Made by a program: the position numbers and the translations under genes. Source: a virus. From it: a stretch of DNA of 37,570 nucleotides. This document shows positions 2,148-32,320 of this stretch, in pieces (within the stretch, counting starts at the first letter, position 1; every line of letters begins with the position of its first letter). Location: positions 1 through 37,570 of the IMG/VR virus record IMGVR_UViG_3300005831_000047; one strand, 5' to 3'. The notes beneath the pieces are model-generated. The model had not been told where the DNA came from and did not search any database. It worked only from the letters and a program-made list of their open reading frames with translations.

Positions 2148-3467
2148 ATGAGGAAAAACCAACAATTATCTGTGGGTAAGATACCCATTTCAGTATTAAC
2201 CGAAGAAGGGGAGACACCAAGTCCTTCATTGCTATACTCTCATTTATTTAATCCCTCTAATTTCTCTGTTGACTATAGGTCAACTGATTATATCAAGAAG
2301 GATGATTTTTTCAAAGCCCTAGACGCTACATTTGAAGAGGAAACTCCCTATTATGTAATATTTGAGTGTATTGATAGTGTTAGAAACAATACTATTGTAG
2401 TGATTCCAAGCGTAAAATGGGTCATTAATTTGGTGGTTTCTACTGGCGATACCAACCAAGATAGAGTTAAAATGGCTATGCAATCCAAAATTGGTGGTGA
2501 TTATTTATCTCCTGATGAGTATGATGTATACCAAGTTATAAAAGATGCGGATGATTTTGAAGAAGTAGATATCGATGATAGTGAAAAAGATCTTGTTAAA
2601 GAAGGACTAAATAAATCTAAATCATTAAAGATTGCTGCTTTTACAAAGAGTTCTGAGTTTTCAATTATTGTTGGATCTCACATCTATACCCCAGTTGAAG
2701 ACCCTTATATTGAAAAGTTTTTTAAACATTACGATAAATACAAATACCCGGAAGTCAAAATCAAGACTAAAGATGCTGTATTTACTCTAGGATCCACGTC
2801 AAATGGTTTATTTCTTAATAAACACTATTTAACCAACGGTTCTTATGGTAAGGATATTATTGAGCATAACTACAACGAAGACTTTGCAGATGTGTATGAA
2901 AAATTGATAGATTTCTTAGGTAATGATGATAGTGGTTTGGTATTACTGAAAGGTGAGCCTGGAACGGGTAAAACATCACTACTTATTCATCTAACCAATA
3001 TTTCTGAGGAACTAGGTAAGAAGATTGTTTTTGTCCCTTCTGCATTTGCTTCGGTACTAACTGATCCATCCTTTTTAACATTTGCTGCTAGTCAATTAGT
3101 AGATTCTATACTTGTGCTTGAAGATGCTGAGGAAGCATTACTTACCAGAAATCACTCTAATGGTGGTGCTGTAACTAATATCCTTAATATATCAGATGGT
3201 ATCTTAGGTAAGATTTTAAAGACCAAGGTTATAGCTACTGTTAATAAACAAGAATCTCTTGATGATGCTTTATTTAGGAAGGGTAGGTTAAAACTTGAAT
3301 ATACATTTAATCCACTTGAGGTTAAAAGAGCCAATGCATTATTAGAGGCTCTAGGTAAGTCTGATCGAGTAACGGTTCCCACCACTCTAGCTAATCTATA
3401 CAATATAGATTATGATCCTAAAATGAACGAAGAAAAACCTGTTAAAAAGATGGGGTTTGGTCGCTAG
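2148..3467 (+). CDS. AAA+ ATPase, Bcs1-like core with unknown N-terminal domain
   Basis: ATP-driven remodelling protein. Walker A is GEPGTGKT at residues 269-276 and Walker B is ILVLEDAEE at about 321-329. They are followed by LNISDGILG and a sensor segment (VIATVNKQESLDDALFRKGRLKLEY). The order 'subdomain for a small set of loops, N-x-x-x-x-LD-x-AL-x-[RK]-x-GR' is typical of classical AAA proteins of the Bcs1/cell-division ATPase type. In place of the usual paired arginines I see R-KGR. Residues 1-240 are acidic and match nothing I can name; they could be the substrate adaptor. At 439 residues it has one AAA module. It starts only 10 bases after a terminator, so its promoter must either overlap that hairpin or be reached by read-through. 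Target unknown. Confidence 0.8.
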   Translation: MRKNQQLSVGKIPISVLTEEGETPSPSLLYSHLFNPSNFSVDYRSTDYIKKDDFFKALDATFEEETPYYVIFECIDSVRNNTIVVIPSVKWVINLVVSTGDTNQDRVKMAMQSKIGGDYLSPDEYDVYQVIKDADDFEEVDIDDSEKDLVKEGLNKSKSLKIAAFTKSSEFSIIVGSHIYTPVEDPYIEKFFKHYDKYKYPEVKIKTKDAVFTLGSTSNGLFLNKHYLTNGSYGKDIIEHNYNEDFADVYEKLIDFLGNDDSGLVLLKGEPGTGKTSLLIHLTNISEELGKKIVFVPSAFASVLTDPSFLTFAASQLVDSILVLEDAEEALLTRNHSNGGAVTNILNISDGILGKILKTKVIATVNKQESLDDALFRKGRLKLEYTFNPLEVKRANALLEALGKSDRVTVPTTLANLYNIDYDPKMNEEKPVKKMGFGR

Positions 3468-3773: not shown

Positions 3774-3995
3774 ATGAGTGTTAAGTTAAAGAAAGTAAAT
3801 ATTAAAATCGAGTCTATTACTGTCGATGGTAAGGAAACCTACGATGGTGCCGATGTTTTTGGTGCCATGTCACCAGACGGTAAAATAATTCTACAAACAT
3901 CTATAGGTAAGACCAAAATTCAGGCGCTTACCATAGTATTATGTGAGGATAATTCAAATTTAATTATTGAAGATGAAGAGATTAGCGATAATTGA
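3774..3995 (+). CDS. Small hypothetical protein
   Basis: A 73-residue beta-rich, acidic-ended protein (MSVKLKKVNIKIESITVDG, C-terminal LIIEDEEISDN). No known family is recognised. It is the first gene after the terminator at 3740-3763 and overlaps the exonuclease start by 23 bases, so it probably opens the long replication transcript and is translationally coupled to the exonuclease. No membrane segment or signal peptide. Confidence 0.68.
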   Translation: MSVKLKKVNIKIESITVDGKETYDGADVFGAMSPDGKIILQTSIGKTKIQALTIVLCEDNSNLIIEDEEISDN

Positions 3996-4932
3996 TGCTG
4001 ATTCTATGATCTACATTGTTGCATATAAGTTTCGAACTAAGAAAGTCGCTAATATGGTTAAGATAAATCTAAACCAATTTATTAGTGAATTACTGCACGA
4101 GGCCAAAGCAACACATTATGTTGGATTTTATGGTTCCAGTGACAAGACAAGAATACCAAACTTTAGATACGCTGTGGATCCAGAGTATAAGAAGAATCGA
4201 CCGGAAACTCCTGACTTTATTACAAAGTGGAGACCGACTATACACCAGGAAATGACTGACAGGTGGAATTTTATGTCAGTAGCTGGTATTGAGGCTGATG
4301 ATGCTGTTGCTATTGCAAAAGCTAAATATGAAAACGAATTTGATGAAATTGTTATCATAACGGCTGATAAAGATCTAAAACAAATTGCGGGTACTATACA
4401 TTTTGATATGAACAAACACAAGTTCACAGTAATGGATAAGTTCTCTGCTGATAAGTTTTTTGCTGAACAAATGCTGAAAGGTGATACTACTGATAATATC
4501 AAAGGATTACCTGGTATTGGTCCAAAGAAAGCTGCTGACCTAGTTGAGACTTGTACTAATTCTGTACAACTTAAGTGGATGATAATCAGAATGTATAAAA
4601 ATCATTTTGATAAAAATATAGTTGAACCAGATATCCAAAAAGAAATTGAGGATGAATGGTTGGCTTTTGCTGCCGATAATGATGAACTTGAAAGTATGAC
4701 CGCTAAGCAGCAAGAGCGCCAAAAGAGATTGTTTGTAATAGGAGCAACCAAACGTAAAGTGATCGAAAAGAATGATGGTGGGTGGAAAGGATATATACGT
4801 CAGCAATACACATTATTGCGTATGTTAGATGAGGCCCCTGATGGATTTGAAATTCCAGAGTTAACAGAGTTTGAGATACCAGATGAAAACGATCAACCAT
4901 CTGATTCTGATGTTGATTTCTTAGGTCTTTAA
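3973..4932 (+). CDS. 5'-3' exonuclease / flap endonuclease (FEN family)
   Basis: Structure-specific 5' nuclease of the T5 D15 / T7 gp6 / PolI N-domain type, removing RNA primers and flaps during replication. The first metal site is IIDADSMIY (D8, D10). A conserved stretch runs FRYAVDPEYKKNRPETP (arch region). The acidic cluster is GIEADDAVAIA and ITADKDLKQIAG. The helix-three-turn-helix that grips the template is DTTDNIKGLPGIGPKKAADL. The 319-residue length suits a stand-alone phage enzyme. A TTG at 3967 could add two residues, but the ATG at 3973 gives the normal N-terminus directly before the first beta-strand and is chosen here. It overlaps the preceding small gene by 23 bases and the MoxR gene starts 2 bases after its stop. 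The C-terminus (about 290-319) is a D/E-rich tail. Confidence 0.93.
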   Translation: MKRLAIIDADSMIYIVAYKFRTKKVANMVKINLNQFISELLHEAKATHYVGFYGSSDKTRIPNFRYAVDPEYKKNRPETPDFITKWRPTIHQEMTDRWNFMSVAGIEADDAVAIAKAKYENEFDEIVIITADKDLKQIAGTIHFDMNKHKFTVMDKFSADKFFAEQMLKGDTTDNIKGLPGIGPKKAADLVETCTNSVQLKWMIIRMYKNHFDKNIVEPDIQKEIEDEWLAFAADNDELESMTAKQQERQKRLFVIGATKRKVIEKNDGGWKGYIRQQYTLLRMLDEAPDGFEIPELTEFEIPDENDQPSDSDVDFLGL

Positions 4933-4933
4933 T

Positions 4934-6055
4934 ATGAACAGGACAGAAGTTGTAACATCGATAAGAGAGACAATATTATCTCATTCACTACAATCTATTC
5001 AAGAAGCACTTAGTAAACGTTTCTACAATATGAACAAGGTTATAGAGGCATTATACCTCGGTACTACAACTGGTAAGAATGTTATACTGTATGGACCAGG
5101 AGGATTTGGTAAATCACAAATTGTAAAGGCTTTTCTTGACTATGTTAGTATACCAGCCCCAACAATTGTTGGTTATGAAGATATGGAAGTCGAGGCTTTA
5201 CTTGGTATACCAAACATCAAGAAATTGACTGAAACCTCTGTATATGAAACAGCGTTTGATCGTAGTGTATTTAGTAGTCCTGGAGTATTGATTCTTGAAG
5301 AATTTCTGGATGCCAGACCATCTACTGCTGCTGCATTGAAGGATATCTTAACCGAAGGCGGATTAAGACAGAATGGTAGGTTCACCGAATCGTTAATAAG
5401 TTCTGTTATTATATGCACCAACAAGAGCCCAGAAGATGTCAGTATTGATGATTCTAGTGCTGCTTTTTATAAGGAAAGATTCCCTATTAGAATTAAAGTA
5501 ATGTGGGATCATTATTCTCATGAAGCTTATTTAGATTTCCTAAAGGTGGTTAAACCAGACCAAGTAGATGCTCAGAGCCTTCTCTATGATGTATTAGCAG
5601 AAACTGCAGCCAGGACTATTGATTTGGTATCCCCAAGGGTTATCAAGGATGCTTCTGATCTTCTTGATGTTCATAAGGATATACGTGTTCTTCAATATGT
5701 TGATGGGTTAGATACTGCTGATATGACTGAAGTCTTAATGTATTGTTCTTTTGTAACAGAGAGATTCAGGATAAAAGCTGTACTAGATCGAGCTAATAAA
5801 TGGGCCGATAATTTGGAAAGTAAACCTCTTACAACCATTAGGGCTATTACTAGTGCCTTAGCTGAAATCAATTTCATTGTAAGCAAACTAACAGAGGTTA
5901 CTTCTAAACATCAAGAGAATACTACAGAGATACTAACCTTTATAAACCGATGTTCTACACTTGAACATTCGCTAAGGTATAGAATTGTAGGTGAACTTGG
6001 GTGTGAGGTCGAGTCTCAATTATTCTTTATAATCAATGGTGAAAGCTCCTCATAA
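4934..6055 (+). CDS. MoxR-like AAA+ ATPase
   Basis: AAA+ ATPase of the MoxR/RavA type. Walker A is GPGGFGKS at residues 54-61. Walker B is VLILEE at 118-123, followed by a helix with LDARPSTAAALKDILTEGG. Sensor 1 lies in SSVIICTNKSPEDV near residue 155, and a pre-sensor region FYKERFPIRIKVMWD follows. The 'EEF-D-A-x-P-x-x-xx-ALKDILTEGG-x-R-xxG' run is the hallmark of MoxR-type modules, with the G-G-x-R sequence as the loop over the pore. The remaining C-terminal 150 residues are helical and unassigned. In this family the ATPase works with a VWA-domain partner as a chaperone or metal-insertion complex, and just such a gene overlaps its 3' end by 20 bases. The substrate in this phage is unknown. 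Confidence 0.85.
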   Translation: MNRTEVVTSIRETILSHSLQSIQEALSKRFYNMNKVIEALYLGTTTGKNVILYGPGGFGKSQIVKAFLDYVSIPAPTIVGYEDMEVEALLGIPNIKKLTETSVYETAFDRSVFSSPGVLILEEFLDARPSTAAALKDILTEGGLRQNGRFTESLISSVIICTNKSPEDVSIDDSSAAFYKERFPIRIKVMWDHYSHEAYLDFLKVVKPDQVDAQSLLYDVLAETAARTIDLVSPRVIKDASDLLDVHKDIRVLQYVDGLDTADMTEVLMYCSFVTERFRIKAVLDRANKWADNLESKPLTTIRAITSALAEINFIVSKLTEVTSKHQENTTEILTFINRCSTLEHSLRYRIVGELGCEVESQLFFIINGESSS

Positions 6056-7109
6056 CTTTATAGTTACTGCATATGATATTATGCGTAGTGCAGAGAGAAT
6101 GGGGTATGAAGGATATATTCCGATTAGTATTGTTTCAGACATGGCTTATCTAAGAATCTATAAGATGTTGAATGCTTATGGTGCCACGGGAAGACCATCT
6201 CCGTACACAGAAACTCTTATTGAGCTTATGGATATGGTTAATGCTGATTCTGTAGAAACCAATAATCCTATTGAGTTTGCTATCAACGTACTAAAACTAA
6301 TATCCCCTAAGGTTAACCTTCGTAGTGCAGAATATTGTAGACTTTCTGGTAATCCCATTCTTATTGATATGGAATCTAGACAGATGAACTATAAAGATGA
6401 TATATCTACGATTAACCCTGAACACCTTGAATTATTAGGGATCGATGCCAGTATACCTGCTAACGAACTGGTTCTAACCGATGAACTTCTTGATATCATT
6501 AAGTTTTACAATGGTATGAAGCATGTCGCCGGTGAATTATTTCCCACAAGAGTATCTCAAGTATCTAGACTATCTAAACTAAGTGACATTCACAAGATTA
6601 GGAAGTATAGGTTTGCTTTACCTTCCTTTAAGACCGACATAGCCTTGAAGAAACCCTTCATACGGGAATCTAAGGTCATCATGAACCAGAACAACAGTGT
6701 TGTGGTTATGGTGGATGTTTCCTGGTCTACGTCAACTAATCCCAAGTATTTTTCTATTGTTAAAGCTGTACTACTCAGCCTGTTAGATTCTTTTATCGAT
6801 GATGTTACTGAAGTTACCATATTGGAGTTCAATAATATGCCAGTTAAAGAGATTGTGTTAAATACAAGACAGGATCTAAAAGAGTATGTCAATTATAAAT
6901 TTTCTCCGGTACTCAGTGCTAAAGGGTGGAAAAACGTGTACAACCATATCAAGAAGTATGATAGTAATTCAGTCATCTTTATTACAGATGGATTGGAGAG
7001 TATAGTTAATTTCCCGTCTAATATTCGCTTGTTTGCTGTTTCCACAAATAGAAACAAAGAACTTGATGAATTATGTGTTAATAGTGGAGGTAAAATGGTA
7101 TTAGTATGA
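6036..7109 (+). CDS. VWA-domain protein, partner of the MoxR-like ATPase
   Basis: A 357-residue protein with a C-terminal von Willebrand A domain (about residues 220-357). The MIDAS metal site D-x-S-x-S is seen as DVSWSTS with D227, S229 and S231. It is followed by a helix (VKAVLLSLLDSF), the strand VTEVTILEFNN, and SVIFITDGLESI carrying the later MIDAS aspartate. The N-terminal 220 residues are helical and unrecognised. There is no signal peptide or membrane anchor, so it is cytoplasmic. It begins 20 bases inside the MoxR-like gene and its stop overlaps the helicase start (ATGA), so the three genes are coupled. By analogy with RavA-ViaA and CbbQ-CbbO pairs, the ATPase probably uses this protein as its substrate adaptor; the target cannot be read from the sequence. 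Confidence 0.85.
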   Translation: MVKAPHNFIVTAYDIMRSAERMGYEGYIPISIVSDMAYLRIYKMLNAYGATGRPSPYTETLIELMDMVNADSVETNNPIEFAINVLKLISPKVNLRSAEYCRLSGNPILIDMESRQMNYKDDISTINPEHLELLGIDASIPANELVLTDELLDIIKFYNGMKHVAGELFPTRVSQVSRLSKLSDIHKIRKYRFALPSFKTDIALKKPFIRESKVIMNQNNSVVVMVDVSWSTSTNPKYFSIVKAVLLSLLDSFIDDVTEVTILEFNNMPVKEIVLNTRQDLKEYVNYKFSPVLSAKGWKNVYNHIKKYDSNSVIFITDGLESIVNFPSNIRLFAVSTNRNKELDELCVNSGGKMVLV

Positions 7110-8257
7110 TATCAACATTAACTCAGGAACAGAAAGTAGCTGCCGAAGGAATCCGTGATTTCTTAAGTAAACCTGCTCAAGCAAACGAGTTCTTTGTATT
7201 ATCGGGGCCTCCTGGTAGTGGTAAGACTTTTATGTTAAAAGAGGCTTTGCAGCACGAGAAAAGGAAAGTAGTTGGTGGAACCATAGCACACTCTGCTAAA
7301 GAAGTATTGAAGCAGTCTATTGGAACTAGTTTTACAATAGCACAACTACTTGGCATGCAAATGGACGACTCCTCGGAAGAAATCTCATTTAAAAGAAATA
7401 AGAACGGTAACATGAAAATTGATGGTACTGAGATTCTTTTGATAGATGAGGCATCAATGATAGATGATCCGCTGGTTGACGCAATTCTGCACGAGGTTAG
7501 TATTCGTGATATTCACTTAATTGTGGTTGGCGACCCATTTCAATTACCTCCAGTAAAACAAGAACATCAGTCTAAGTTTTTTGATAGAATAGATGCTGAG
7601 TTGACTACTTCGCAACGATTCGAAGGACCGATCGGTGAATTAGCTGTCAGGATTAGACAAGAGATCGATAACATCAATAAAGATCTACCGTTCAATAAGT
7701 ATATTCTCGAAGAAGAGTATGGTAGACAGGATTGTATGAGAGGTGATACCGGTTATAGATTTATGAATGATATTCATTGTACTGTTGATCGGGCCGCTAA
7801 TGATATAATTAGTAATCGTAATGATAAGAATCATACTCGTATACTAGCCTATAAGAACTCGACTATTGAGCTTTTAAATACTGGGGTAAGAGAGAGAATA
7901 TACGGAAAGAACTCCCATCAATTCGAAAGAAATGAGATAATCATATCTCGAGGAGGATTTTCAGTTAACAGATCTCCTATAATCCATAATGGTCAGATTT
8001 CGGTAGTTACTGGGATAGCTTATCAGTTAGGTCCCTTTGGTATACCATGTGCATATCTAGCCCTGGATAATGTACCAACTACAGCTACCGGAATACCAGT
8101 CGTGATGAACACAGAGGAAGCTCAGACTGCTTACGAGATAGTTCGTAGACAACGTTACAAGGAGGCCGCCGAATATGGTCAATGGAGCCGCTACAATCAA
8201 TTCTTACAGTCGTTTGCTGTGTTTGATTATGCCTATGCTACATCGCTGTACAAGGCT
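7106..8257 (+). CDS. Dda-like SF1 DNA helicase, exon 1
   Basis: N-terminal 384 codons of an SF1B (RecD/Dda type) 5'-3' helicase. Motif I is GPPGSGKT at residues 34-41. Motif II is LLIDEAS (D114, E115). Motif III is GDPFQLPP at 142-149. Motif IV is the TSQRFEGPIGELA region near 170. The unspliced reading frame runs into TAA at 8258-8260 just after DYAYATSLYKA, where helicases of this family continue with the conserved QG-x-T of motif V. That continuation is found at 9316 after the intron. The spliced protein would have 432 residues, close to the 439 of T4 Dda. Without splicing, the product lacks motifs V (second half) and VI and should be inactive. The start overlaps the VWA stop by 4 bases. 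A Dda-like enzyme would assist replication initiation and fork restart. Confidence 0.9.
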
Positions 8258-9315
8258 TAATACTATGGGCCTTATAAAACCCTCTAAATTGCGGGGACTT
8301 CCTTAAGTCAACATTACCAAACGTATAGTGCGAACTATACGCGGCATAACTAATCATTATGGTATGGTAACAAGATGTTGAATTGGATAATCCGCAGCCA
8401 AGGAACTTTAAAGAGTTCAAGGTTCAGAGACTATAATGGGGGAATCTTTATTATATCTATGATTATGCAACTAGTTTTTACTATAATAGTACTATGGAAA
8501 CATATTACATTTATACACTTGAAGACCCTATATCTAATGAGGTTAGATATGTAGGGTATACTAAGAAGTCTTTATCAAAAAGACTTTACGGTCATCTAAA
8601 GAACTTGGATGAGGCTGAAAAAGAAACTAGAAAATGGAATAAACGTCTCTCTTGGATTAAGTCATTAAGAAGCAAAGGATTAGAACCTCTAATAAAAGAA
8701 CTTGATAGTTGTGAAACTAAACAAGATGCTTATGAATTAGAAATATATTGGATCAGTCAATTGATTCAGTGGGGGTTTTCTTTAACTAATATGACTATGG
8801 GAGGAGATGGCGGTGACACCTTTTCAGGATTATCAGAATCCAATAAGTCAATAGTTAGGTTAAAATTATCAAATAATGCTTTAGGTAGAAAACGTACCGA
8901 GCATCAAATTGATAGTTGGAGAGAGTCTGTTGGTTTAAATGGTCACTGGTTGAATAAACCAGGTGCTATACATCCTATGAAAGGTAAGAAGCATAGTAAA
9001 GATACAAAACTAAAATTATCTAAAGCTAGTAGTGGAAGACTATTTACAGAAGAACAAAAGAGTAGACTTAAGGGTAGAATACCTTTTAATAAAGGTATGT
9101 CTAAATATCCTGGAGTGATTCAATCTGATGAAAATGGATTTGTCGAGGCTTTCGACACTGTTGCATTAGCAATTATTAAACTTGGATTACCTAGTAATAG
9201 ACAATCTGGTATAATAAGATGCTGTAATGGTAAAACTATTAAGGCATTTGGGTATTTTTGGAAATTTAAAGATTAAGGGATAGTCCGGCTTATATTGAAA
9301 GGTATAAGGTAACTG
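8258..9315 (+). other. Group I intron in the Dda-like helicase gene
   Basis: Self-splicing intron of 1058 bases by its core. P1: exon AAGGCT (8252-8257) pairs with GGCCTT (8268-8273), giving the required U-G pair at the 5' splice site. P3: CCCTC (8280-8284) with GGGGG (8438-8442). P4: TGCGG (8290-8294) with CCGCA (8392-8396). P5: GACTT (8296-8300) with AAGTC (8305-8309). P6: CAACAT (8309-8314) with ATGTTG (8375-8380), with a further 7-bp hairpin CGTATAG/CTATACG (8322-8341) inside; P5 and P6 share C8309 as I drew them, so one of those end pairs is not formed. P7: GACTAT (8429-8434) with ATAGTC (9280-9285). The intron ends in G9315. The homing endonuclease gene fills the P8 region between the two P7 strands, and its TAA overlaps the 3' core. 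Joining 8257 to 9316 restores the helicase frame. Confidence 0.92.
8494..9276 (+). CDS. Intron-encoded GIY-YIG homing endonuclease
   Basis: A 260-residue endonuclease that would spread the intron by cutting intronless alleles of the helicase gene. The catalytic domain is N-terminal: YIY at residues 5-7, YVG at 19-21, catalytic R30 in LSKRLYGHL, and a glutamate in ELEIYWISQL near residue 90. From about residue 120 it has DNA-binding repeats of the NUMOD3 kind (HPMKGKKHSKDTKLKLSKAS, then LFTEEQKSRLKGRIPFNKG), followed by a C-terminal module (about 205-260) resembling NUMOD1/intron-endonuclease helix-turn-helix segments. It lies wholly inside the group I intron. Expression is probably kept low or late by the intron structure, but no clear regulatory hairpin over the ATG is seen. 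Confidence 0.92.
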   Translation: METYYIYTLEDPISNEVRYVGYTKKSLSKRLYGHLKNLDEAEKETRKWNKRLSWIKSLRSKGLEPLIKELDSCETKQDAYELEIYWISQLIQWGFSLTNMTMGGDGGDTFSGLSESNKSIVRLKLSNNALGRKRTEHQIDSWRESVGLNGHWLNKPGAIHPMKGKKHSKDTKLKLSKASSGRLFTEEQKSRLKGRIPFNKGMSKYPGVIQSDENGFVEAFDTVALAIIKLGLPSNRQSGIIRCCNGKTIKAFGYFWKFKD

Positions 9316-9462
9316 CAAGGAATGACCTTAAACAACGTGTATGTTTGTGAAGGTGAGATTATGGATGTTAAGCCTATCGAGTGGAAACAAAGGTTTCAAG
9401 CTCTATATGTTGCTATGACACGCGCTCGTAAAGAGCTTATTATTTACAATAAAAATGGATAA
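9316..9462 (+). CDS. Dda-like SF1 DNA helicase, exon 2
   Basis: The last 48 codons plus stop of the helicase, in frame with 7106-8257 after removal of 8258-9315. It starts with QGMTLNNVYV, the second half of motif V, and carries motif VI as ALYVAMTRARKELIIY, which holds the arginine finger of SF1 helicases. No start codon in this fragment would make a useful protein by itself. The stop at 9460-9462 is followed 2 bases later by the next ATG, the same tight spacing as the neighbouring genes. This fits a normal gene end and not a decayed remnant. Confidence 0.9.
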   Translation, partial: QGMTLNNVYVCEGEIMDVKPIEWKQRFQALYVAMTRARKELIIYNKNG

Positions 9463-9804: not shown

Positions 9805-10734
9805 ATGTTTGAATCAATTAAAACAATACCAAGTAGTGACGAGAATGTAGTTAAGTTTGTATTCGAATCAAAGGATGCTGTTGCAGAAGCAGTTTTGTAC
9901 AAGTATCCAACATACGAGGATCGCACAGTAATTTGTTGTTCCACCCAGAGTGGATGCCCGGTTGGTTGTGTATTCTGTGGTACAGGTAAATTCTTTACTC
10001 GTAACCTAACAGCCGAAGAGATTGTTGCTCAAGTTAAGTATGCAGTTGATTATACTGGTGTAGATGTAAGTAGTGTAAAGAAGTTTCAGATTATGTTCAT
10101 GTCAATGGGAGAACCATTACTAAACTATGATGAACTTGAAAATGCTATTCAGGATCTCAATCTTCTTTACGAGAATGCTCAGTTACTGGTAAGTACAACA
10201 TTACCGTTTGGAACAGAAAAGATAAATACCGGTATTGGTCCTAATATCTTTGGTAGATTTATTAAATTATCAGAATTGATTCCAGCCATTGGTATACAAT
10301 TCTCTGTCCATGAATCTTATGATATCGCGCGTAATAAACTAATACCAAGCAGGACTAATTCTTTGTGTACAATAGGTAGAGTTGGAGAGTTATGGAATTC
10401 CATTACCAAACGACGTCCTTTTTTTAACTACTGTGTGCACGATGGTAATAATACCGATCTAGATGTTAACAGATTATTAGCGTGTTTCAAACCCAGTATT
10501 TGGGAAGTTACTCTATCGGTAATCTGTGAGAAAGATCAATCAATGAAGAATGCTATCGAAGATAAGCTGACTCTGGTAACAGATTTTGCACCCAAAATGG
10601 CTGCGGCCGGTTATTCTACTCGAGTATTCAACCCTGCTGGTCAGGATGATATTGGTGGTGGATGTGGTCAGTTATGGTTTGTCCAGGAATGGGCCAAAAA
10701 GTACAAAGATGAGCAGTGCAATCTTCCACAGTAA
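9805..10734 (+). CDS. RlmN/Cfr-like radical SAM methyltransferase, short form
   Basis: Radical SAM enzyme related to RlmN and Cfr, which methylate C2 or C8 of adenine in 23S rRNA (A2503) and, for RlmN, some tRNAs. The iron-sulfur motif is C51-x3-C55-x2-C58 in SGCPVGCVFCGTG. Family landmarks follow: RNLTAEEIVAQVKY, FMSMGEPLLNYDEL, and FSVHESYDIARNKLIPS. Both catalytic cysteines seem kept: one in ICCSTQSGC just before the cluster, the other, which forms the methylated-cysteine intermediate, as C287 in GGGCGQL. At 309 residues it lacks about 70 N-terminal residues that in E. coli RlmN form the accessory RNA-binding domain. So the chemistry looks intact, but the substrate may differ from rRNA. 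It overlaps the next gene by 26 bases. Confidence 0.88.
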   Translation: MFESIKTIPSSDENVVKFVFESKDAVAEAVLYKYPTYEDRTVICCSTQSGCPVGCVFCGTGKFFTRNLTAEEIVAQVKYAVDYTGVDVSSVKKFQIMFMSMGEPLLNYDELENAIQDLNLLYENAQLLVSTTLPFGTEKINTGIGPNIFGRFIKLSELIPAIGIQFSVHESYDIARNKLIPSRTNSLCTIGRVGELWNSITKRRPFFNYCVHDGNNTDLDVNRLLACFKPSIWEVTLSVICEKDQSMKNAIEDKLTLVTDFAPKMAAAGYSTRVFNPAGQDDIGGGCGQLWFVQEWAKKYKDEQCNLPQ

Positions 10735-21617: not shown

Positions 21618-22740
21618 TGAATTAGGTGCAGTTCTGTATAAACAGGATTCTAAAGGTAAGATAAGAACTTTTCAGATGGAAGTGTCTGGAGGTTCTTATC
21701 GGACCATTACAGGTTTAATTGATGGTGCTAAAATCACCACCGCGTGGACCGAATGTAAACCTAAGAATGTTGGTAGAAGTAATGCTACCACTCCCGAGGA
21801 GCAAGCTATCGCTGAAGTTGCTGCAAAGTATACAAAGAAGATCGCTATCGAACACTATTCTTACGATATAGAGGAAGTTACTATTACCCGACATAAGTAT
21901 TTTTCTCCTATGTTAGCTGAAACAGCTAAAGATGCTAAGTGGGAAATGGAAGAAGGGGTAGAGGTAATAATCGACCCTAAACTTGATGGTATGCGTATGG
22001 TTACCCAACCAAAAATAGCCCATTCTAGAAAAGGTAAACCTATAGCAGCTTCTGTAGAAATCCTTGCCAATCTAGGAGGATTCTTTGAACAATACCCTAC
22101 AGTAACTTTAGATGGTGAACTATATAATCACGAATATCATGCTAATTTTCAGACACTAATGAAATTGTTCCGTAAGGAAAAACCAAACCAAGCTGAGCTA
22201 GGAGAAATGTTAAGCGTTGCTGAGTATCATGTTTATGACATGTTTGATGAAGCAAATCCTGACCTTACTGCTAAAGAAAGAAAAGCCTGGTTAGTAGAAC
22301 ACTTACAGTCATTATCCATAGATAAAGTCTTTGTGATACCTGGAACTATAGTTAATACTATTGTTGATTATAAATGGGGTTTGGATAAAAATCTAGAAGA
22401 TGGTTACGAAGGTAGTATTATTAGAATTCCATTTGCTAGGTATGTAAACAAAAGGGCTAAGTCTTTACTTAAAATTAAGATATTTGATGATGATGAATTC
22501 ATTATTAAAGCGATACTACCTGGTAAAGGTAATCGTAGTAGTATGGCCGGCTCTATTGTTGTTGATGTTTATGGGGCTTTGGTTGGCTGTGGAATTAGGG
22601 GGGATAAAAGTTATTTTGAGGATCTACTGGATAGAGCTGATGATTATGTCGGCCTTAAAGCGACTGTTCGTTTCTTTGGATTTACTGATGATGGTAAACT
22701 ACGGTTTCCCGTAGTAGTTGATATTAATAGACCAGATTAA
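21601..22740 (+). CDS. ATP-dependent DNA ligase
   Basis: A 379-residue ligase sealing nicks in Okazaki fragments and recombination products. The adenylated lysine is K127 in DPKLDGMR (motif I). Motif III is LDGELYNHEY, motif IV is YEGSIIR, and motif V is SLLKIKIF. The final 100 residues form the OB domain, ending LRFPVVVDINRPD. Residues 1-85 are an extra N-terminal domain (LYKQDSKGKIRTFQMEV, then CKPKNVGRSNATTPEEQA) that recalls WGR-like domains. The open frame extends 6 codons upstream to 21583, but the ATG at 21601 gives a normal 17-base overlap with the phosphoesterase and is preferred. Confidence 0.93.
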   Translation: MDELSNELGAVLYKQDSKGKIRTFQMEVSGGSYRTITGLIDGAKITTAWTECKPKNVGRSNATTPEEQAIAEVAAKYTKKIAIEHYSYDIEEVTITRHKYFSPMLAETAKDAKWEMEEGVEVIIDPKLDGMRMVTQPKIAHSRKGKPIAASVEILANLGGFFEQYPTVTLDGELYNHEYHANFQTLMKLFRKEKPNQAELGEMLSVAEYHVYDMFDEANPDLTAKERKAWLVEHLQSLSIDKVFVIPGTIVNTIVDYKWGLDKNLEDGYEGSIIRIPFARYVNKRAKSLLKIKIFDDDEFIIKAILPGKGNRSSMAGSIVVDVYGALVGCGIRGDKSYFEDLLDRADDYVGLKATVRFFGFTDDGKLRFPVVVDINRPD

Positions 22741-22741
22741 A

Positions 22742-24325
22742 ATGGAACCTAAGAAAATTTTAAATAACTCTGCTGACATTCTCCTGGAGACTGTTACAGA
22801 GTTTTGCGATGCTGTATGTAGTACTTTAGGCCCAGGAGGCCGCACTGTTATAATAGCCAATAGCGATGGGGATATTCCTCATGTAACTAAAGATGGCGTT
22901 ACAGTAAGTGAGAGTATTAGATATGCTGATCCTACTAAACAGGCCATCGTATCATTGATTAAAGAGTCTGCTCGTAAGACTGCTGCTGCAGTTGGGGACG
23001 GAACTACTACTTCTACTTTATTGACGAAGACAATGGTGACTGAAGGGCTAAATGCTATGAATATATGCGACTCTATCAAGGCGTTTCTTGAATACTTTGA
23101 TGAGGCAATCAGTGATGTAGTTGAGTACCTGGAAGATACCAAGACCCTTATCAATAAGGATTCTGAATTACTGCATTCTGTCATTACTATATCTAGTAAT
23201 AATGATCAGGAAGTTATAGACCTAGTTAATAAAGCTGTTAAATCAGCTGGTGTTGATGGCATAATTAATGTAGAAGCTACTGATAATTTAGTATCTGATG
23301 TAACCATTACCAATGGCGCCTCACTAGATACCAAAGTATATACTAAGGTTAAATCAGAAAAAGCCGATACTAATATAGTACTGATTGAAGGTCCTATATC
23401 CGATATCTATCAGATAGAACAGATACTAAGACAGGCTAGTGCAAGTAAACAACCTTATATTGTTATTGCTAAAGAATTCTCCGTTGATGTACAGCGTGTT
23501 GTAGACATTAATAGGTCTAGATCTTTTGCCGATATAACGTTAGTGGAAGCAGAAGGTTTCTCTTCTTATCGATTAGAGATTTTACGTGATATTGCTAGTA
23601 TAACTGGTGCTACTATTCTTAGTATAGATGGAAGTACTTCTACCTTACTGCGCGATTACTCAGTTGATCATAATGGTCTGGTCGAGAAAGCTATCATCGG
23701 GCCCAATGAGCTAATATTATTTCCATTTGAAGATAAGATAACATCTGAGGTAGAAAAGCTTGTAAAAGAGCTAAAAGCTGCTTATAATGATGTTAAGCTG
23801 GATGCTAACTCGGCAGCTAGTACTCATTTCAAACGTAGGCTTTCTAAATACTCAAGTGTTGCTACCATAAAAGTTGGTGGAACCACTCAAGCCGAAGTTA
23901 TCGAAAAGAAAGATAGAGTTGATGATGCGGTTTGTGCTGTATCTGCGGCTGTAAATGGAGGTGTTCTACCTGGTGGTGGGATGGCTCTTTATTACGCCGG
24001 TAGATTTATGGAGTCTAAGAGACAGGCTACTATGTCATTTGATCAACAATCTGCTCTTGCTGTTGTAATTAGTGCATGCTATATTCCGGTTAGAGTATTA
24101 TGTAGTAATGCTGGTATTGATTGGGATAAGTACTCTTCCGATCCTAAATTTGCAGACAACGAAACTACTGTTCTTGATATTGATTCTTTGGAAATAGGGG
24201 ATGCGTTTACGTTAGGTATAATTGACCCTGCCCTTGTAGCTATTAATGCTATGATTAATGCGTCGTCTGTTACTAAAACATTAATTAAATCTAAGGTAAT
24301 AATTATCCCAGATAACAATGGCTAG
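22742..24325 (+). CDS. GroEL-like chaperonin (HSP60 family)
   Basis: A 527-residue group I chaperonin, near the 548 of E. coli GroEL. ATP-site signatures are present: STLGPGGRTVII, VTKDGVTVSES, and AVGDGTTTSTLLT. The late equatorial region has VDDAVCAVSAAV and GGVLPGGGMAL, with the catalytic aspartate (the GroEL D398 position) kept. The apical domain (about residues 190-370) is divergent, and the flexible GGM-repeat tail is absent (it ends VIIIPDNNG). Phage-coded GroELs are known in some large phages, where they fold phage proteins. No GroES-like gene is seen here, so it may work alone or borrow host GroES. It lies inside the replication operon, 1 base after ligase and overlapping the next nuclease by 8 bases. 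The ATG at 22742 is chosen over a frame-extended start at 22718. Confidence 0.93.
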   Translation: MEPKKILNNSADILLETVTEFCDAVCSTLGPGGRTVIIANSDGDIPHVTKDGVTVSESIRYADPTKQAIVSLIKESARKTAAAVGDGTTTSTLLTKTMVTEGLNAMNICDSIKAFLEYFDEAISDVVEYLEDTKTLINKDSELLHSVITISSNNDQEVIDLVNKAVKSAGVDGIINVEATDNLVSDVTITNGASLDTKVYTKVKSEKADTNIVLIEGPISDIYQIEQILRQASASKQPYIVIAKEFSVDVQRVVDINRSRSFADITLVEAEGFSSYRLEILRDIASITGATILSIDGSTSTLLRDYSVDHNGLVEKAIIGPNELILFPFEDKITSEVEKLVKELKAAYNDVKLDANSAASTHFKRRLSKYSSVATIKVGGTTQAEVIEKKDRVDDAVCAVSAAVNGGVLPGGGMALYYAGRFMESKRQATMSFDQQSALAVVISACYIPVRVLCSNAGIDWDKYSSDPKFADNETTVLDIDSLEIGDAFTLGIIDPALVAINAMINASSVTKTLIKSKVIIIPDNNG

Positions 24326-25188: not shown

Positions 25189-25253
25189 AAGATAAATTTA
25201 ACTACTATAAATAATGACAAAAGTTTGTTTATAATTTAGTTAACCAGTTGAAA

Positions 25254-27773
25254 ATGACTGTATTTACAAATGAAGAAGTAAAGAAAAATTGTTTAAAGTT
25301 CTTTCGTGGCGATGAATTAGCTGTAAAAGTATGGATGAACAAATATTGTTTAAAAAACAAAGAAGGTGAGTTTGTTGAGGCCTCTCCATTAGATAGATTT
25401 AGTGCAATTGCAAAAGAGATCCATTCTGTAGATATTGCTTTAGGGGATACAACTTACACTGAAGATCAATACTACGAGGCTCTCTCAAATCAGGTAATCA
25501 GCCCCGGAGGCTCTGCTTTATATGGCATAGCTAATCCGTATTCTGTAACGTCCTTAGGTAATTGTTTTGTTATCTCTGGTAATGACGAGGATAGCTACGG
25601 ATCTATTCTAAAAACAGATCAGGAGATAGTGCAAATAGCTAAACGTAGAGGGGGAGTTGGAGTTGATGTGAGTCATCTTCGACCAAAAACCACCACGGTA
25701 AGTAATAGTGCTGGAACTAGTTCCGGTGTAGTATCTTTCTGTGAACGGTTTAGTAATAGTTCTAGAGAAGTGGCCCAAGACGGTCGTCGTGGAGCTTTAA
25801 TGTTATCCATACATGTTGTCCATCCTGATGTACTGGAATTCATAAACATGAAACTGGACACTGGTAAAGTTACCGGTGCTAATGTTTCCGTTAGACTGTC
25901 TGATAAATTCATGCAGGCTGTTGATGCTGATGGGTATTATCTACAACATTTTCCATGTGAGTTCGATGTTAGTAATCTAGGTATTGATATGGATGGTTTG
26001 ATTCTGGACAAACTAACAACTCTAATGTATAACGATAAACCGGTGTATGTTAGGAAAGTTAAAGCTAAACCGGTATGGAATGCTTTAATTAAAGCTAATT
26101 GGTCTTCTGCTGAACCAGGAGCATTGTTCTGGGACACCATCATTCGTGAGTCAGTACCAGATTGCTATGCTAAAAGTGGGTTTACTACCGTATCTACTAA
26201 CCCGTGTGGAGAAATTCCTCTAAGTCCTTACGATAGCTGTCGTCTAATTTCAGTTAATCTGGTTAAGATGGTAATCAATAGATTTCAAGATGTGGCCCGG
26301 TTCGACAATGAATTGTTTGATAAAATGTCTGCTATGGTTACGCATATGATGGATAACATCATTGAACTTGAGATCAAAAAGATCAATCAGATCATCGACA
26401 AGATCAAAGCTGATCCAGAGAACATCGACACTAAATGGACTGAACTTGATATGTGGAATAATATCCGCATTAATACTGAAAAGGGCCGACGTGCTGGTAT
26501 CTCAATCATTGGTCATGGTGACATGCTAGCTATGTTGGGAATGCAGTACGGTACCGAGTATAGTACTGACTATCTGGCGAGAATTCATCAACAGTTTGCA
26601 GAGAAAGTCTATGAGGCTTCTTATGTACTGGCCACTAAACGAGGTACATTTCCTGCATTTAATGCATCACTCGAGCGTGGTAATCCGTTCCTAAACCGTA
26701 TTGGTAAAGCCGGAATCCCGCGCCGTAACATTGCATTGTTGACTATACCACCAGTTGGTACTATGTCAATTATTATGAATAATCAAACTAGCGGAATTGA
26801 ACCAGTTTTTATGCCGGTTTATAAACGTAGTCGTAAGGTTAATCCTAACGATACTCATTCTAAAGTTGATTTTGTAGATGATCAAGGCGACTCTTGGGAA
26901 GAATTTCCAGTATTTCACCCTTATTTTAAGGAGTGGATAGGTACCAAATATCCTGAAATAGAACCAGAAGATTTATCTGACGATATAATAGCTGCTTTGG
27001 TTGAGGAATCCCCGTATGCTAAATCATCTTCTGCTGATATTGACCCTGTTGTTAAAATCAAGATGATAGGTATGGTTCAGAAATGGATAGACCATAGCAT
27101 AAGTAATACAACAAATCTGCCCACTACAACAACTGAGAAAGTAGTTGGTGACCTATACATGAAAGCCTGGAAATCAGGTTGTAAAGGTATAACTATCTAC
27201 CGAGACGGAAGTCGTGCCGGAGTATTGAATTCAGTAGTAAATAGTTCTAGTAAGTTTGAACAGCGTGATGCGCCTAAAAGACCTAAAGATCTGAAGTGTG
27301 ATATTTTCCAACCAACAATTTCTGGTGAAAAGTATATCGTACTGGTAGGATTATTCGATGATAAACCATTCGAAGCTATGGCCTTTAAACGTGGAGACAC
27401 AATACTATCTTCGAAGATAGAGACTGGTATTTTACGGAAACAGAAAAGCGGTGTGTATAACTTACTAGACACATCTGGGCATTTGTTAATCGAGGATATT
27501 ACTTCCAAATTTGAAACTCCAGAATGGGGATTTGTTATGAGACTGATATCTACTGCCTTAAGACATGGTGCTGCTATACAATTCGTTGTTGAACAGCTAA
27601 ACAAGTCTGAGGGATCTGTAGTTCATATTAGTAAAGTTATTGCAAGACAATTGAAAAGATACATACCGGATATCGATGGTGGTGTATCAGCATGCCCTAA
27701 CTGTGGATCTGAGATGCATATGGAAGGTGGGTGTAAACAATGTAAAGAATGTGGTTATGGAGCCTGTGGATAA
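25254..27773 (+). CDS. nrdJ: Class II (adenosylcobalamin-dependent) ribonucleotide reductase
   Basis: Converts ribonucleotides to deoxyribonucleotides using a B12-derived radical. The 839-residue single-chain layout, with no NrdB-like gene beside it, fits class II. Seen: the VTSLGNCFVISGNDEDS start of the barrel with the first redox cysteine, AKRRGGVGVDVSHLRP, the active-site STNPCGEIPLSPYDSCRL (N-x-C-x-E catalytic triad), and IALLTIPPVGTMSIIM. The last 50 residues form a zinc-ribbon-like tail (ACPNCGSEMHMEGGCKQCKE), carrying redox/zinc cysteines up to the final C-G. A part near 680-790 resembles the TSCPD-type region. A TTG at 25248 could add 2 residues; the ATG at 25254 is preferred. It overlaps the next gene by 17 bases. 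B12 must come from the host or medium. Confidence 0.92.
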   Translation: MTVFTNEEVKKNCLKFFRGDELAVKVWMNKYCLKNKEGEFVEASPLDRFSAIAKEIHSVDIALGDTTYTEDQYYEALSNQVISPGGSALYGIANPYSVTSLGNCFVISGNDEDSYGSILKTDQEIVQIAKRRGGVGVDVSHLRPKTTTVSNSAGTSSGVVSFCERFSNSSREVAQDGRRGALMLSIHVVHPDVLEFINMKLDTGKVTGANVSVRLSDKFMQAVDADGYYLQHFPCEFDVSNLGIDMDGLILDKLTTLMYNDKPVYVRKVKAKPVWNALIKANWSSAEPGALFWDTIIRESVPDCYAKSGFTTVSTNPCGEIPLSPYDSCRLISVNLVKMVINRFQDVARFDNELFDKMSAMVTHMMDNIIELEIKKINQIIDKIKADPENIDTKWTELDMWNNIRINTEKGRRAGISIIGHGDMLAMLGMQYGTEYSTDYLARIHQQFAEKVYEASYVLATKRGTFPAFNASLERGNPFLNRIGKAGIPRRNIALLTIPPVGTMSIIMNNQTSGIEPVFMPVYKRSRKVNPNDTHSKVDFVDDQGDSWEEFPVFHPYFKEWIGTKYPEIEPEDLSDDIIAALVEESPYAKSSSADIDPVVKIKMIGMVQKWIDHSISNTTNLPTTTTEKVVGDLYMKAWKSGCKGITIYRDGSRAGVLNSVVNSSSKFEQRDAPKRPKDLKCDIFQPTISGEKYIVLVGLFDDKPFEAMAFKRGDTILSSKIETGILRKQKSGVYNLLDTSGHLLIEDITSKFETPEWGFVMRLISTALRHGAAIQFVVEQLNKSEGSVVHISKVIARQLKRYIPDIDGGVSACPNCGSEMHMEGGCKQCKECGYGACG

Positions 27774-31063: not shown

Positions 31064-31203
31064 TAATAATAAGTACAGTAGTAAATTTGGTATCGTTTGT
31101 ATTTAGTGCAAGCATAGTACTGAATGTACTACTGTTACTTTTTAACAAAAATACCAATGAAAAAGATAAGTGCAACAATAGTAGCAGATTCAATAGGTCC
31201 TAG
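31060..31203 (+). CDS. Single-pass membrane peptide (47 aa)
   Basis: A short frame from ATG 31060 to TAG 31201-31203, coding 47 residues. It has a hydrophobic N-terminal segment (VVNLVSFVFSASIVLNVLLL) and a polar, lysine- and asparagine-rich tail (FNKNTNEKDKCNNSSRFNRS). It joins the previous gene by a 4-base overlap and overlaps the ThyX start by 47 bases. It resembles in plan the 45-residue peptide at 27995: hydrophobic N-terminus, short polar C-terminus, squeezed between nucleotide-metabolism genes. Confidence 0.55.
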   Translation: MIIISTVVNLVSFVFSASIVLNVLLLLFNKNTNEKDKCNNSSRFNRS

Positions 31204-32320
31204 CGGAGATAGGATAACTTCAATGATAGTTACTTTTCCTAGATTCATTCTTGCGGAACTTAATACGCACAGATTATTCTCTAAGAATTCTGCTAGCTCC
31301 AGGGCTATACCGTTTAAAAAGATGTTGGAATCAGTATCTGATGACCCATTTCTACCTATTGCATGGCAGAAGGATCACCCAGGTATGCAGGGTACCGGAT
31401 ACTTTCAATCAGATCCTATAAGAGAGAAAGATGGTGGCGATCTGTCTAGAATTGAAGTTGGTTGGGATGAAGCTAGGAAAGCAGTTATTCATCATGCTAA
31501 ATGGTGTAATGATTATGGTCTTACTAAACAATTATGTAATAGATTACTTGAACCATTTCTATGGCACACCGTATTAGTTACTTCTACTGAATGGAAAAAC
31601 TTCTTCGATCTTCGTGCTCCTAAGTATGTAATCAACGTTGATGCTAAGAAAACTCCCTATAAGAGTCGTAAAGACTTACGTAAAGCGGTAGAAGGATGGT
31701 GGTCAACTCCATCGGATTGGGAACAAATGACGGAGTCAGACTGGTTTAGTATGAGTCAGGCCGGAGCTGAAATTCATATGCAAGCACTAGCAGAAGCTAT
31801 GTGGGATGCTATGAAAACAAGTACTCCTCAAACACTTGAGGGTGGTGAGTGGCATGTACCATTCGGGGATCAGATTGATCCAAAAGCGTTAAAAACTTTG
31901 GCTTATGATTACGTGAATAAACTCGAAGAGAGTAATAATTCCAATAGTGGTTGTATGGTAACATATGATTTTCCTGTTATTGAGGCTAAATTGGCTATTA
32001 AGATAGCTACTGCACGATGTGCTAGGTTATCTTATATGACATTTGACCAAGAGATAGACTACAATAAAGATTTAGAACTTTACGACCGACTACTATCTAG
32101 TAAACATATGTCTCCTTTCGAACATTGTGCTAGAGCTATGACAGAAATCGAAGCTGCTATGTATATAAAAGGTCCTATATTTACTAAAAAAGCTCCCAAA
32201 ACAGTTAAACACCCCACAATTGAAGGTATATGGATTTATCCTAATGACTTAGGGTGGTGTAATAACTTCAAGGGATTTATCCAACAGCGTTACTTATTAG
32301 ATAATCCACTAATTAATTAG
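31157..32320 (+). CDS. thyX: Flavin-dependent thymidylate synthase, enlarged form
   Basis: Makes dTMP from dUMP with FAD, NADPH and methylene-tetrahydrofolate, downstream of dUTPase. The ThyX motif (R/T-H-R-x(3)-S-x(4)-S-R) is NTHRLFSKNSASSRA near residue 35. Other landmarks are SSTEW-like SACTSTEWKNFFDLR (seen as TSTEWKNFFDLRAP), SQAGAEIHMQALAEAMWDAM, and LLSSKHMSPFEHCARAM near the C-terminus (the H-x-x-PFEH motif). At 387 residues it is much longer than the usual 220-250, with added sequence between the first motif and NFFDLR and again before the PFEH motif. The ATG at 31157 places this start as in other ThyX proteins; the frame extends to 31124 but that part lies in the membrane-peptide gene. 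Confidence 0.88.
   Translation: MKKISATIVADSIGPSGDRITSMIVTFPRFILAELNTHRLFSKNSASSRAIPFKKMLESVSDDPFLPIAWQKDHPGMQGTGYFQSDPIREKDGGDLSRIEVGWDEARKAVIHHAKWCNDYGLTKQLCNRLLEPFLWHTVLVTSTEWKNFFDLRAPKYVINVDAKKTPYKSRKDLRKAVEGWWSTPSDWEQMTESDWFSMSQAGAEIHMQALAEAMWDAMKTSTPQTLEGGEWHVPFGDQIDPKALKTLAYDYVNKLEESNNSNSGCMVTYDFPVIEAKLAIKIATARCARLSYMTFDQEIDYNKDLELYDRLLSSKHMSPFEHCARAMTEIEAAMYIKGPIFTKKAPKTVKHPTIEGIWIYPNDLGWCNNFKGFIQQRYLLDNPLIN

Follow-up and report, generated by a model that had tools for sequence, protein, structure and literature searches.

A MoxR ATPase gene and a VWA gene form a real, conserved and uncharacterised pair in the window (the whole stretch of 37,570 nt analysed here), and the pair is of a kind that is known and common among phages. 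Phage MoxR-VWA pairs as such are not new; what is new is a divergent version with a distinct VWA partner, in a rare and distantly crAss-like lineage. We propose, with a probability of roughly 40%, that the ATPase forms a ring which works with the VWA protein as its adaptor to remodel a phage replication or recombination protein, gene position alone pointing to this client. The features on which the analysis draws are as follows.

3967–4932, plus strand: 5'-3' exonuclease of the FEN/T5-exo type (Pfam 5_3_exonuc_N 1.7e-17, phrog_107 1.8e-51), at the same place in both relatives
4934–6055, plus strand: MoxR-family AAA+ ATPase, 373 aa (Pfam AAA_5 3.8e-9 and bpMoxR 4.4e-9, both over curated cut-offs; N4-gp24-type profile match)
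5093–5116, plus strand: Walker A (P-loop) GPGGFGKS, residues 54–61, invariant in the three family members
5288–5302, plus strand: Walker B region LILEE, residues 119–123, with Glu for the canonical Asp, invariant in the three family members
5477–5479, plus strand: putative arginine finger, R182 of YKERFPI; other phage MoxR proteins have ERF/NR motifs at the aligned position
5636–5638, plus strand: putative sensor-2 arginine R235 in VSPR, from alignment with phage MoxR proteins
6036–6055, plus strand: 20 bases shared by the 3' end of MoxR and the 5' end of VWA (17 in both relatives)
6036–7109, plus strand: VWA protein, 357 aa, with a helical N-terminal part (~1–210) and a C-terminal VWA domain (~213–357), from Pfam and predicted structure
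6714–6728, plus strand: MIDAS motif DVSWS, residues 227–231, invariant in the three family members
6981–6992, plus strand: ITDG with the second MIDAS aspartate, D318, invariant in the three family members
7106–8260, plus strand: Dda-like SF1 helicase, first exon (phrog_325 1.3e-57)
9313–9462, plus strand: Dda-like helicase, C-terminal exon with an approximate splice boundary; the translation matches the C terminus of the uninterrupted helicase of the larger relative

The open reading frames at 4934–6055 and 6036–7109 overlap by exactly 20 bases, as an earlier note on this DNA had stated. The two relatives come from IMG/VR, a 175-kb contig (L001) and a 20-kb contig (L002). The gene order exonuclease-MoxR-VWA-Dda, which the note had proposed to seek in other phages, is identical in all three genomes, with a gap of 1–3 bases between exonuclease and MoxR (one base from stop to start in the window), MoxR/VWA overlaps of 20, 17 and 17 bases, and a 4-base overlap (ATGA) of the VWA stop and the Dda start that is also kept in both relatives. 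The description of a coupled pair in a phage replication operon therefore stands, the unit being kept in the only two relatives found. Identity of the 175-kb relative to the window is 64% for MoxR and 48% for VWA, with similar values for the 20-kb contig, and VWA is the fastest-changing of the four genes (48% identity vs 60–66% for its neighbours). Codon comparison indicated purifying selection on all four genes; for MoxR and VWA, pN was 0.16–0.37 vs a pS of 0.76–0.86, with synonymous sites saturated. Both open reading frames are thus real genes rather than chance ones, given this selection and the similar overlap kept in two relatives. It is highly improbable that the pair does little for the phage, as a degenerate or dispensable passenger, since strong purifying selection and active-site residues invariant over 48–75% protein identity argue against it, even if a non-canonical Walker B motif and a family known from three genomes only would suit such a fate.

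Synteny between the window and the 175-kb contig extends over ~35 kb, a replication block. On that contig the terminase matches its PHROG family at 6e-56 and the portal its own at 3e-64, and the terminase is 24–28% identical to terminases of crAss-like and other gut phages, hence we regard the lineage as a distant crAss-like relative. Three open reading frames of 1567, 3705 and 2723 aa lie at the end of the same contig (151151–175222, minus strand); their size and layout are reminiscent of the giant proteins of crAss-like phages. Searches for further members of the family were negative: tblastn against 50,697 phage records gave none at E<=0.01 (VWA) or 1e-3 (MoxR), with weak matches only at E<=10, additional IMG/VR scans (with alignments, the MoxR protein of a relative and the RIIB-like neighbour) returned the same two contigs only, and a profile search of genome contigs with the MoxR alignment found no relative. 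A scan with the ribonucleotide reductase (RNR) recovered only 27–31% identical genes in MAGs and no clue to the host, and PDB sequence searches were uninformative.

The ATPase has the P-loop, sensor 1, arginine finger, sensor 2 and MoxR-type similarity of a MoxR-family AAA+ protein, with N163 (sensor 1), R182 and R235 invariant in the three family members. Active motifs had been described as intact, which holds for the P-loop and MIDAS; the Walker B motif, however, is LILEE in all three members, not hhhhDE, whereas the canonical Asp (D-E) is present in almost every other phage MoxR protein of the alignment. Walker B Asp-Glu is usual in the MoxR family and not strictly defining. The Glu is a conservative change and so does not, alone, exclude the protein from the family, and it could mean weaker ATP hydrolysis. 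The predicted structure of the ATPase was poor (mean pLDDT 54) and too weak for use.

Pfam matches of the VWA protein fell slightly under the cut-off (VWA_2 4e-4, VWA 4.2e-4) and its single-chain predicted structure was modest (mean pLDDT 59). Within this model, residues ~213–357 resemble many solved VWA domains (Z 11–12, aligned over 216–357, rmsd ~2.5–3.5 over ~140 residues), Foldseek matches include the NorD VWA domain from solved NorQ-NorD complexes, and a search with the full-length model brings up CobT and VWA-like proteins of other phages. This predicted fold gives a clear match that supports the C-terminal VWA assignment independently of Pfam. The helical N-terminal 210 residues had no match in any family tested.

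Judged by profile and tree, the ATPase appears closest to N4-gp24-type ATPases, not to CobS. It matched the N4-gp24-type profile at 97.1% (E 6.9e-11, 244 columns) and the CobS-group profile at 93.6% (E 2.1e-7, 108 columns); phrog_1297 was its best PHROG (4e-6 to 3e-5), and phage-CobS phrog_249 matched only at E 0.07–0.08. In a tree built from 19 ATPases of phages or mobile elements the trio fell on the N4-gp24 side, a starred split (99/97) separating it from CobS. The branch leading to the trio is very long (3.27), hence we claim no exact place for it among DUF2201-type ATPases. Pairs of the N4 gp24-gp25 type (Schitoviridae, Plateaulakevirus, GAP32-like phages and others) combine a MoxR ATPase with a DUF2201/PF09967 VWA-like protein, and the window pair shares with them the MoxR and VWA arrangement, the C-terminal position of the VWA domain and an ATPase of the gp24 kind. 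It differs from them in its long ATPase branch, in the Glu for Asp of Walker B and in the partner: N4-type DUF2201 proteins carry an HExxH metallopeptidase-like N-terminal domain, the motif being conserved in seven phage DUF2201 proteins aligned, whereas HExxH is absent from the VWA protein in the alignment of its three family members. The VWA protein matched neither DUF2201_N nor DUF2201 in Pfam, and no match emerged from profile-to-single-sequence comparison with its counterparts in phiA047 and ABPH49; its VWA domain aligns weakly, in the right register, with the DUF2201 VWA domain (hhalign E 0.0077).

Phage CobS-CobT pairs (Kyanoviridae, ICP2, nickie, haloarchaeal tailed viruses) likewise consist of a MoxR ATPase and a VWA protein, often in a replication module, but CobT precedes CobS in the CobST phages examined, whereas the window has MoxR before VWA. 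Searches with NCBIfam CobS/CobT family models gave none at E<=1, with no CobT in Pfam, and similarity of the VWA protein to CobT was confined to a 22-column stretch. Membership of the CobS-CobT cobaltochelatases was rejected on the missing family model match. As the VWA partner is neither CobT nor, lacking the HExxH domain, DUF2201, we consider the pair a new variant.

The cobalamin connection of CobS-CobT merits mention because the phage encodes a class II RNR and a search for a small subunit was negative. In such a role the pair would keep the B12-dependent RNR active, either by joining a host CobN as CobS-CobT do or by reactivating the B12 enzyme; a cobalamin role has already been proposed for viral CobST (PMC8651126). 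The RNR gene (25248–27773) encodes an adenosylcobalamin-dependent enzyme which scores 452.9 bits with NrdJ_Z (TIGR02504; curated cut-off 399.95) and has a B12-dependent enzyme as best PDB match, and neither the window nor the two relatives yielded a class I small subunit. We nonetheless hold this role to be distinctly improbable: the ATPase is nearer to the N4 type than to CobS, the NCBIfam search found no CobS or CobT, and the NrdJ gene lies 18 kb from the pair. CobN was not found in the window or in either relative, although the host could supply it, nor did it turn up in the 15 surveyed phage records that carry such ATPases; 11 of these 15 records have a class I small subunit and none has an RNR over the NrdJ cut-off. 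The earlier suggestion that the pair activates RNR thus gains some interest from the B12 dependence of the enzyme, but nothing ties the pair to it.

The window ATPase is also over the Pfam cut-off of bpMoxR (PF20030), which belongs to MoxR-vWA-beta-propeller conflict systems. This match is not specific, as the N4-type ATPase of phiA047 passes the same cut-off. No third component (VMAP, iSTAND, FtsH or beta-propeller) was found beside the pair, which is adjoined by the exonuclease and Dda here and in the two relatives, and the MoxR-vWA ternary conflict system was rejected as an assignment because its defining third component is absent there. It is rather improbable that the machine serves host takeover or counter-defence by taking apart a host complex such as a defence assembly. 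The formal match to the MoxR of a conflict-linked system would fit such a role, and the faster evolution of the VWA protein might suit a changing host target, but the pair adjoins no beta-propeller, VMAP or effector gene, it is located in a conserved replication block and not in an early accessory region, and conservation of the unit across a large divergence argues for a housekeeping role.

The ring-plus-adaptor mechanism is established for RavA-ViaA, CbbQ-CbbO, NorQ-NorD and CobS-CobT. The first three have this general mechanism in common with the proposed remodelling machine, but the RavA model matches the window MoxR only at E 0.024 (13.7 bits vs a cut-off of 681) and their client pathways (fumarate reductase, rubisco and nitric oxide reductase) were not seen in the window. 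In the remodelling mechanism that we favour, the MoxR protein would assemble as an ATP-driven ring and probably bind the VWA protein, the adaptor, whose MIDAS metal site would grip an acidic residue of the client; ATP hydrolysis would then pull on the client and so change its state. The presence of both domains, and of catalytic and metal-binding residues invariant across three divergent genomes, supports a machine of this kind. Its client, presumably a replication or recombination protein, would most likely be a product of the same operon: one of the neighbours, Dda-like helicase or 5'-3' exonuclease, or a larger assembly that includes them. No client had been evident to the earlier note either, and none was identified here.

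MoxR-VWA pairs had been thought unusual in phages, a view which the GenBank phage records contradict: of 50,697 records, 757 contain a CobS-like ATPase and 474 a DUF2201-type VWA protein. CobST has been described in many tailed viruses with hosts from eight bacterial or archaeal orders (PMC8651126), pairs are known in Hardycor1 and other haloviruses (PMC7911831), a MoxR pair occurs in Bacillus phage 0305phi8-36 (PMC2147016), and homologues of N4 gp24/gp25 are listed as of unknown function (PMC2784036). In these published descriptions the viral CobST annotation rests on similarity, and we found no published, experimentally tested function for the MoxR-VWA pair of a bacterial phage.

Gene neighbourhoods were compared in a sample picked for diversity. 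On the CobS side, 6/9 sampled ATPases had replication or recombination genes no more than about three genes away. The CobS-type pair is between gp46/47 and the clamp/clamp loader in P-SSM4 and likewise in Ochrobactrum phage OC (same family, hence not independent of one another), shortly upstream of primase, helicase and polymerase in ICP2, and between ligase and DnaE in nickie, while in pJN2-26 the CobS-type gene is immediately ahead of DNA polymerase III alpha. The 'peptidase' of P-SSM4, a presumptive VWA partner, is CobT according to PMC8651126. In a Salmonella mobile island the ATPase is two genes ahead of ssb and three ahead of bet, the VWA partner being only presumptive as the gene between ATPase and ssb has no Pfam match. 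The CobS-side genes of Phendrix, Kayvirus 812 and an Enterococcus phage were not near replication genes. DUF2201-side pairs, the nearest kin of the window ATPase, were mostly not beside replication genes (N4, phiA047, isim, GAP32, PA5oct, ABPH49), which speaks against a replication client; in Thermus phiFa an RNase H gene separates the MoxR and VWA genes. Phage early regions are gene-dense, hence the place of a gene points only weakly to a client, and the CobS-side neighbours together with the four-gene coupling do no more than make a replication protein the likeliest single candidate.

A general folding or assembly chaperone, by which the pair would mature another phage enzyme or a virion part alongside the phage GroEL, is unlikely. 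Such a role has been proposed for p618/p892 in the tail of Acidianus two-tailed virus, and the window does encode a GroEL. The pair, however, is inside the replication block, and in the 175-kb relative the head and tail genes are on the opposite strand, ~50–100 kb away. MoxR-VWA pairs are generally regarded as chaperone and co-chaperone (PMC7911831, PMC7159879).

What MoxR-VWA pairs do in the many unrelated phages that carry them is the question raised by these results, and the exonuclease-MoxR-VWA-helicase unit, four genes end to end, is the most compact arrangement seen. This arrangement leaves two proteins as the first candidate clients, making the client question testable with few purified proteins or by deletion in a model phage, e.g. 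N4 (gp24/gp25). The interest of the pair lies in its unusually tight operon and in the work of phage MoxR-VWA machines. A broader generalisation, tentative and on balance doubtful, is that phage pairs of this kind, many of them annotated as cobalt chelatase, are dedicated replication/recombination remodellers unrelated to cobalamin; the distantly crAss-like lineage would then have a version that diverged separately and uses an adaptor of its own, gene overlaps tying it firmly to the exonuclease and Dda helicase.

Several other genes in the window were annotated. The Dda-like helicase gene (7106–9462) is interrupted by a group I intron (Rfam RF00028, Intron_gpI, 8248–8474, 52.2 bits) with a GIY-YIG homing endonuclease inside it (8494–9276); a similar endonuclease is at the same place in the 20-kb relative, and the helicase gene of the 175-kb relative is uninterrupted. 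An AAA ATPase gene (2148–3467) lies between the RIIB-like gene and the exonuclease; it is not at that position in the 175-kb relative, where the closest copy (28% over 128 aa) is upstream of the sigma-factor gene. The radical SAM protein (9805–10734), kept in both relatives, resembles RlmN/Cfr rRNA methyltransferases (TIGR00048, 88.9 bits vs a cut-off of 290). The GroEL gene (22718–24325; phrog_5725 1.3e-103) is ~60% identical in both relatives and ~30% identical to other phage GroELs. A ThyX-like thymidylate synthase (31124–32320) has 398 aa vs 329 aa in the 175-kb relative and matches its family in separate stretches, the extra length possibly being an insertion. Finally, a sigma-70-like factor (35–847; phrog_351 2.2e-31), 68% identical in the 175-kb relative, may redirect the host RNA polymerase.
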